Shown here: positions 1,908 through 3,143 of the stretch, piece by piece
How positions within the stretch are numbered: position 1 is the stretch's first letter
Layout of the letters: each line of letters begins with the position of its first letter
Assembly (NCBI GenBank): GCA_027482195.1
Contig: JAIXWE010000011.1
Location: forward strand, 1 to 44,039
Reading direction: 5' to 3'
Origin: Alphaproteobacteria bacterium
GTDB lineage: Bacteria; Pseudomonadota; Alphaproteobacteria; Micavibrionales; Micavibrionaceae
Length of the DNA stretch: 44,039 nucleotides
Program-made: the position numbers and the translations under genes
Notes under the pieces: model-generated
Told to the model about the DNA's origin: nothing
The model's input: the letters and a program-made list of their open reading frames with translations, nothing else
Databases searched by the model: none

Positions 1908-2732
1908 ATGAGTACTGAAAATATTTTAATCGCAACGCATCAGGGAAAAAGATGGGAGATGGAAGATCGCGCTTTTGCGTTTGTTTTTCCAACCCATGAT
2001 CTGCGCTCTCCAGAATTAGATCTCAAAGATTTTTTTGAGGCCGCACATAACGCAACCGAATCACACGAGTCCGGGGCAGTTTTAACTGCGCTTTTTTACC
2101 ACGCGGCAACTCATTCGGCCACGGTGGCACAATTGGGCGATTGCCGCGCTTATGTAAGTTCTGAGAATGGCAAGGGGGGCATGCAAAGTAAAAGATTGGG
2201 TGTCTCGCATACGCCAATCTTAAAATCTGAGAAAAAAACACTTCTTGAGCGCGGTGGTAAGTTGAATGAGACTGAAACAATGGTTTTATCTGATGACGCG
2301 CATGCCGAGGTGGGGGTGACCCGTGCGCTTGGTGATCATCGCTTTTCTTCTTTATCGCGGGTACCTGATATTTTTTCTGAAGCCTGCGGTGCTCTTCCGC
2401 GCCCATTTTATTTGATTGCGATGACGAATGGTTTTTTTATTGGCGGGCGACCAAAAATTACCCGTTATGATACAACCTTTTTGCAAATGTCGTGGGATGA
2501 GAATCCGGTAAAAGCAATGGCGCAAACATGTCTGGTTCAATCAAAGGGAATGGATAATATGGCGTGTGCTGTCACGAAAATTGATCATGATTTTGATCAT
2601 GATGTGTTGATGTTGGTGGTGGATGGGCATAATGGCGCGCAAGCCGCAGACACAATCATCGCCACTGCGCGCGAATTTTGTTTAAGCCGCTATACGAACG
2701 GGGTTGAGGTCTTGGAACACCGCCCGCAATGA
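1908..2732 (+). CDS. PP2C-like protein phosphatase with displaced DGH motif
   Basis: A 274-residue protein with most PP2C-family Ser/Thr phosphatase motifs: GKRWEMEDR (residues 13-21), SGAVLTALF (55-63), AQLGDCRAYV (74-83), SHTP followed by LLERGG (100-117), TRALGDH (138-144) and DN (216-217). Two features are abnormal. The metal-binding VVDGHNG motif, normally just after MED, lies at residues 237-243, after the last conserved motif. The second acidic motif, normally SDG, reads TNG (173-175), losing one metal ligand. The DNA just before the displaced segment has an 11-bp direct repeat (TTGATCATGAT at 2581 and 2593). The gene overlaps the 3' end of convergent ptsN by 51 bp. Activity cannot be judged; the protein could be a rearranged phosphatase or a pseudophosphatase. 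Confidence 0.75.
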   Translation: MSTENILIATHQGKRWEMEDRAFAFVFPTHDLRSPELDLKDFFEAAHNATESHESGAVLTALFYHAATHSATVAQLGDCRAYVSSENGKGGMQSKRLGVSHTPILKSEKKTLLERGGKLNETETMVLSDDAHAEVGVTRALGDHRFSSLSRVPDIFSEACGALPRPFYLIAMTNGFFIGGRPKITRYDTTFLQMSWDENPVKAMAQTCLVQSKGMDNMACAVTKIDHDFDHDVLMLVVDGHNGAQAADTIIATAREFCLSRYTNGVEVLEHRPQ

Positions 2733-3143
2733 CTCATCGGTTTCTTGCGTGCGCAAGGTTTGGCAAAGTTCTTCATCACGCAAAAGCCGCGTGATACGCG
2801 ACAGGCGTTGCAAATGTAAATTCCCATCATTTTCTGGGGAAAGAATGAGCGCGCAAATATCAATCGGGCGGCCGTCATCTGATTCCATCTCAATGGGTGA
2901 TTTCAGTGTTGTTAAAAGACTGACAGGCGTTGTCAGGGGTGTTGATTTGAGATGGGGAATGACAACGCCGCCGCCAATGGCTGAGCTTGATTGTTTTTCA
3001 AAATGCATCAGCTGGGCATAAACCCATGTCATATCAAGAGATGTTGTTGCTCCAATTTTCCACGATAATTGTTGCAACAGGTGTTCAAAATTATTGACCT
3101 GAAGTTGCGGCAAAAAATGCGTGAAGTAAGGATAATGTGACAT
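2682..3143 (-). CDS. ptsN: PTS IIA-like nitrogen-regulatory protein (PtsN)
   Basis: A 153-residue EIIA-Ntr type protein of the nitrogen phosphotransferase system, a regulatory relay that receives phosphate from NPr on a histidine. The active-site signature is GGGVVIPHLKS, with His64 as the phospho-acceptor; family members read G-x-G-x-AIPH. The C-terminal helix bundle (LQRLSRITRLLRDEELCQTL) also fits. The location after rpoN and hpf on the same strand is the conserved proteobacterial arrangement. An intrinsic terminator lies between hpf and this gene, so it may be expressed at a lower level or from its own promoter. Its last codons overlap the convergent PP2C-like gene. The N-terminus is rather divergent, so the start is less certain. 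Confidence 0.85.
   Translation of the reverse strand: MSHYPYFTHFLPQLQVNNFEHLLQQLSWKIGATTSLDMTWVYAQLMHFEKQSSSAIGGGVVIPHLKSTPLTTPVSLLTTLKSPIEMESDDGRPIDICALILSPENDGNLHLQRLSRITRLLRDEELCQTLRTQETDESLRAVFQDLNPVRIAA

Follow-up and report, generated by a model that had tools for sequence, protein, structure and literature searches.

The window analysed here is a stretch of 44,039 nucleotides, and positions 1908-2732 of its forward strand hold an open reading frame that begins with ATG, ends with TGA and encodes a protein of 274 amino acids. The protein matches the Pfam PP2C profile (PF00481) with 41.6 bits, over profile positions 94-194 only; the curated cut-off of this profile is 20.3 bits, so that the window protein and its relative L010 (110.2 bits) both pass for the PP2C/PPM superfamily. 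In canonical PP2Cs, the DGH motif comes straight after MED. We refer to β1-β2 with MED as block A, to β3-α1 with DGH as block B, and to the remainder up to the DN strand as block C. Read from the N- to the C-terminus, the window protein contains GKRWEMED (residues 13-20), GDCRA (77-81), GVSHT (98-102), TRALGD (138-143), MTNG (172-175), MDNMA (215-219) and finally VVDGHNG (237-243), placing DGH beyond DN. The block order is thus A-C-B, and since this is not a rotation of A-B-C (B-C-A or C-A-B), the arrangement is no circular permutation.

An earlier note on this DNA had proposed a DGH motif displaced past DN, a change of SDG to TNG (codons ACG AAT GGT), and a transposed strand-helix unit in place of a simple circular permutation. 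The first two are present in the window protein as described, and the third is supported by the A-C-B order, which is common to the homologues. The same note had the moved segment running into the convergent ptsN gene; indeed, the two genes overlap by 51 bp. Past ptsN lie hpf, murI and rpoN. Directly upstream of the PP2C gene, positions 1119-1856 hold an Hsp20/IbpA-like gene and then a DUF1150 gene, and the PP2C gene sits between this pair and ptsN. The features are:

1908..2732, plus strand: PP2C-family gene with transposed (A-C-B) order, 274 amino acids, identified by its open reading frame, the Pfam PP2C match of 41.6 bits and homologues of the same order
1908..2000, plus strand: segment A, the N-terminal strands with GKRWEMED (motif 1, a metal-ligand Asp), residues 1-31, with strands modelled at residues 6-11 and 20-28
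2001..2582, plus strand: segment C, helix 2 to the DN strand with GDCRA, VSH, TRALGD, TNG and MDN, residues 32-225, from alignments and the Pfam match inside it
2421..2432, plus strand: MTNG, replacing the SDG metal-binding motif that is present in 9/9 relatives
2583..2603, plus strand: linker DHDFDHD from the DN strand to the DGH strand, equal in length to that of the relatives compared and holding most of an 11-bp repeat pair
2604..2732, plus strand: segment B, the transposed DGH strand and helix (VLMLVVDGHNGAQAADTIIATAREF...) followed by the C-terminal tail, from a modelled strand (residues 231-241) and helix (244-261) and from in-silico reordering
2682..3143, minus strand: ptsN (EIIA-Ntr), convergent, overlapping the 3' end of the PP2C gene by 51 bp; Pfam PTS_EIIA_2 80.1 bits, with TIGR01419 as best NCBIfam match

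Relatives with the same motif order and their neighbours

A protein search of 142 genomes from the window's order recovered seven homologues that share 22-26% identity with the window protein; a second, alignment-based search of that order returned the identical set. Two further homologues (G311 and G187), from a different order of the class, were found among 385 class genomes with a profile of the DN-to-DGH junction; matches to this profile that end before the DGH positions (L026-L030) were left out of the homologue reading. All nine have the order A-C-B, which is thereby present in two alphaproteobacterial orders. Five of the copies (L010-L014) come from alphaproteobacterial MAGs, one of them labelled Micavibrio sp. 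Counting the window protein, DGH stands after DN (motif 2 after motif 11) in 10/10 members, a departure from the canonical PP2C/PPM motif order, and the junction between the two motifs spans ~22-26 residues in all of them. DGH itself is invariant in 10/10, with a hydrophobic strand before it and a helix after it. The relatives thus show A-C-B and not the normal order, which supports the suggestion of a new PP2C subfamily in the earlier note. One member (G069, L008/L052) has 531 amino acids, consisting of the transposed PP2C domain and ~230 extra residues that seem to include two repeated domains.

Within the window's order, a PP2C match was obtained in 9/142 genomes, eight of them transposed and one canonical (G094). 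In the class sample, the Pfam match begins at profile positions 86-94 in transposed members and mostly at 10-31 in canonical ones; two canonical entries depart from this, L083 with a start at 72 and, in G390, the second part of a match that is split in two. Every canonical class PP2C sequence that we read carries ED-DG-GDS-SDG-DN. The NF033484 model (Stp1/IreP PP2C) gave 23.7-33.2 bits for the relatives and no match for the window protein, all below its equivalog cut-off of 230. We found no close relative of the window protein in a plasmid collection, none of L010 in plasmid and phage collections, no transposed PP2C among the 15 loci returned by a viral junction-pattern search, and no match in the PDB sequences with the window protein alone as query.

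The genes around the transposed PP2Cs differ. In L010, L011, L012 and L014, the PP2C gene lies directly 3' of ppk1 (polyphosphate kinase, by Pfam) on the same strand, which suggests a ppk1-PP2C operon; the reading frame upstream of the gene in L013 resembles, by eye, a ppk1 fragment, and in G050 the gene follows what by eye is htpG. In G311 (L050:8909-12140), a manX-type EIIA gene, the HPr gene (ptsH), the PP2C gene and ahcY (by eye) stand in a row, with the PP2C gene 55 bp after HPr, and in G187 the PP2C gene faces a convergent rpoN. A role of the transposed PP2Cs as HPr(Ser-P) or PTS-Ntr phosphatases is a tempting but doubtful reading. Three of them outside the ppk1-linked group (G311, G187 and the window) adjoin PTS-Ntr or rpoN genes, and PP2Cs that dephosphorylate HPr(Ser-P) occur in Mycoplasma pneumoniae and B. 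subtilis, according to references given in PMC6213207. Against this, four or five relatives sit after ppk1 and one after htpG, the adjacency may be incidental, and no HprK was found in the window genome, in G069 or in the incomplete genomes G311 and G187, for which reason we give a PTS-Ntr function low weight.

Two kinases were considered as partners and rejected. HprK as a general partner fails on its lack of detection in 4/9 genomes. As for Hanks kinases, a match above the cut-off was obtained in G129 only and one weak match in the window genome; in most genomes carrying a transposed PP2C, no classical Hanks kinase was found.

Predicted fold and origin of the C-terminal DGH unit

AlphaFold2 models were computed from alignments of six family sequences. 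For L010, an intact relative, the model had a pLDDT of 84.5 and a pTM of 0.86, with the DGH strand at residues 257-263, the following helix at 268-287, and block means of 88-97 except in the tail. The window protein gave 75.3 and 0.80, with the strand and helix of segment B at block means of ~82-90. The best Foldseek matches in the PDB were PP2Cs for both models (E-values of 5.9e-12 with L010 and 4.5e-8 with the window protein), with TM-scores of just 0.5-0.6 from an aligner that is order-dependent; at the level of prediction, the models match the PP2C alpha-beta-beta-alpha fold. By profile match and predicted fold, the family is a homologous variant of the PP2C superfamily without its canonical motif order.

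The published topology of the SpoIIE PP2C domain indicates how the rearranged chain could be accommodated. Its two sheets are ordered b1-b10-b9-b6-b7 and b2-b3-b4-b5-b8; helices join the strands at the top, whereas the b2-b3 loop sits at the base, and the two termini are near each other (PMC3517971). This sheet arrangement implies that b10 (DN) faces b3 (DGH), and that the end of b2, the start of alpha2, the end of b10, the start of b3 and the end of alpha1 all lie at the base. With all the rejoined ends on that side of the sandwich and the DGH strand across from the DN strand, a rewiring of the chain is possible. The structure prediction called for in the earlier note shows a C-terminal DGH strand and helix that are folded confidently, and for the Asp itself we infer a position at the metal site, backed by the SpoIIE topology.

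We propose that the β3-α1 unit with its DGH metal-binding motif was relocated from the second position to the C-terminus, giving the non-circular order A-C-B. Both ends of the unit lie at the base of the β-sandwich, and its excision there, followed by re-attachment through a short loop after b10, would leave the fold unchanged. The chain would run from β2 to α2 and on to the DN strand, then through a 7-residue loop into β3 (DGH) and α1, and the DGH Asp would still be brought to the metal site. It is very likely that we are dealing with a small, conserved PP2C/PPM family in which β3-α1 has moved to the C-terminus with the three-dimensional fold kept, the window copy probably being a weak enzyme or pseudophosphatase. 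That the family represents a natural, conserved, non-circular PPM permutation, forming an undescribed subfamily that retains its active site and occurs in at least two alphaproteobacterial orders, is a likely reading as well. In the open-access literature that we searched, no description of a permuted PP2C was found, and the SpoIIE papers use "permutation" in other senses.

A segment-swapped dimer, in which the C-terminal DGH unit of each chain would complete the partner's active site instead of its own, appears improbable. There is a precedent in the SpoIIE crystal dimer, which exchanges β1-3 so that the DGH-equivalent Asp628 comes from the partner (PMC3517971). However, a linker of ~7 residues and a DN strand opposite β3 would make folding within a single chain easy, and the single-chain models are confident across the DGH unit, although a monomer prediction is compatible with a swap too.

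An origin of the C-terminal motif as a newly evolved or chance element, in a degenerate PP2C that lacks B, we regard as very improbable. DGH is a short motif, and the Pfam matches of the native proteins leave it out; its invariance across the family, within the same strand-helix context, argues against chance. Moreover, when B was put back after A, the PF00481 score rose from 110.2 to 121.2 in L010 and from 41.6 to 48.4 in the window protein, a gain of 7-11 bits, and the match then reached into the B region, whereas reversed B added nothing (104.5 and 39.7) and deletion of B gave 106.4 and 40.1. Modest as it is, the gain has the expected sign in each of the two proteins.

The junction in the window gene carries an 11-bp direct repeat, TTGATCATGAT, at 2581 and 2593, the sole exact direct repeat of such size and spacing in the window. 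Its presence is as the earlier note reported, but its reading as a scar of rearrangement or transposition is rejected: in the five relatives compared, the 7-residue linker is alike and contains no repeat of 8 bp or more, so the repeat is a local feature of the window copy. An assembly or sequencing artefact, in which a misjoin carried the DGH segment to the gene's 3' end, is hardly credible even though the source genome is a single draft of 125 contigs, the repeat sits at the junction and the genomes searched include none of the window's genus, because the same order in nine other genomes, and an equal linker without the repeat in those five relatives, refute the misassembly that the earlier note had kept in view. 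The branches are long in a tree built on the collinear core, in which the transposed rows require two label changes; a single clade of transposed PP2Cs (p-AU 0.395) was neither shown nor rejected.

Metal site and comparison with known systems

The metal-ligand Asp residues of MED, DGH, SDG and DN are all present in L010-L014 and in most relatives, with G311 having DD for DN. MED, DGH and DN are also intact in the window copy; it has TNG where 9/9 relatives keep SDG, and VSH where most have TRDH. We take Asp746 of SpoIIE to be the Asp of SDG and its co-ligands to be those of DGH and DN, a motif assignment of our own, and the Asp of TRDH to be a metal 3 ligand, as in bacterial PP2Cs and probably here. 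In SpoIIE, Asp746 ligates Mn1 with two further Asp residues, and a Ser likewise replaces an Mn3 Asp (PMC3517971). Loss of both the SDG Asp (metal 1) and the TRDH Asp (probably metal 3) suggests that the window copy is probably a weak enzyme or a pseudophosphatase. The pseudophosphatase option raised in the earlier note hence suits the window copy, with its TNG and VSH, but not the family, since the other members keep SDG. Judging from their motifs, the relatives with SDG look like working enzymes, and we infer Ser/Thr phosphatase activity for the intact ones.

The canonical PP2C/PPM proteins (PF00481; PPM1A/PP2C-alpha, T. gondii PP2C 2i44, bacterial Stp1/PrpC) contain the same motifs (QED/MED, DGH, GD, RA-GD, SDG and DN), are alike by Foldseek and Pfam matches, and have what is predicted to be the same fold. 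They differ from the transposed family in their order, A-B-C as opposed to A-C-B with the DGH strand and helix past the DN strand. The SpoIIE phosphatase domain (PF07228) also has the PP2C fold, and its strands 1-3 can be supplied by another chain, as in the crystal dimer, so the usual link to alpha1 is dispensable for that part; in SpoIIE, however, the sequence order is canonical and the exchange takes place from chain to chain. TAB1 and other PP2C pseudophosphatases resemble the window copy in being without metal-ligand Asp residues, and TAB1 structures were among the Foldseek matches of the predicted models, but the motif order of TAB1 is canonical. The DGHGG-type PP2Cs on viral contigs (L031, L032, L087) have YQEDR, DGHGG, GDSP and RALGD-type motifs close to those of the transposed family and differ from it in their normal A-B-C order. 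In L031, the reading frame next to the PP2C looks like a gene for a UvrD-like helicase into which intein-like segments are inserted.

Profile annotation matches the transposed PP2Cs only partly, and a search that insists on the order of the motifs or on full-length coverage would overlook or truncate them. Circularly permuted enzymes are a familiar finding, whereas the movement of one internal strand-helix unit with an essential metal ligand, the fold being kept, is rare. Here such a rearrangement would affect a main protein phosphatase fold, and a family with both intact and degenerate members would allow direct tests of chain rewiring at constant fold.
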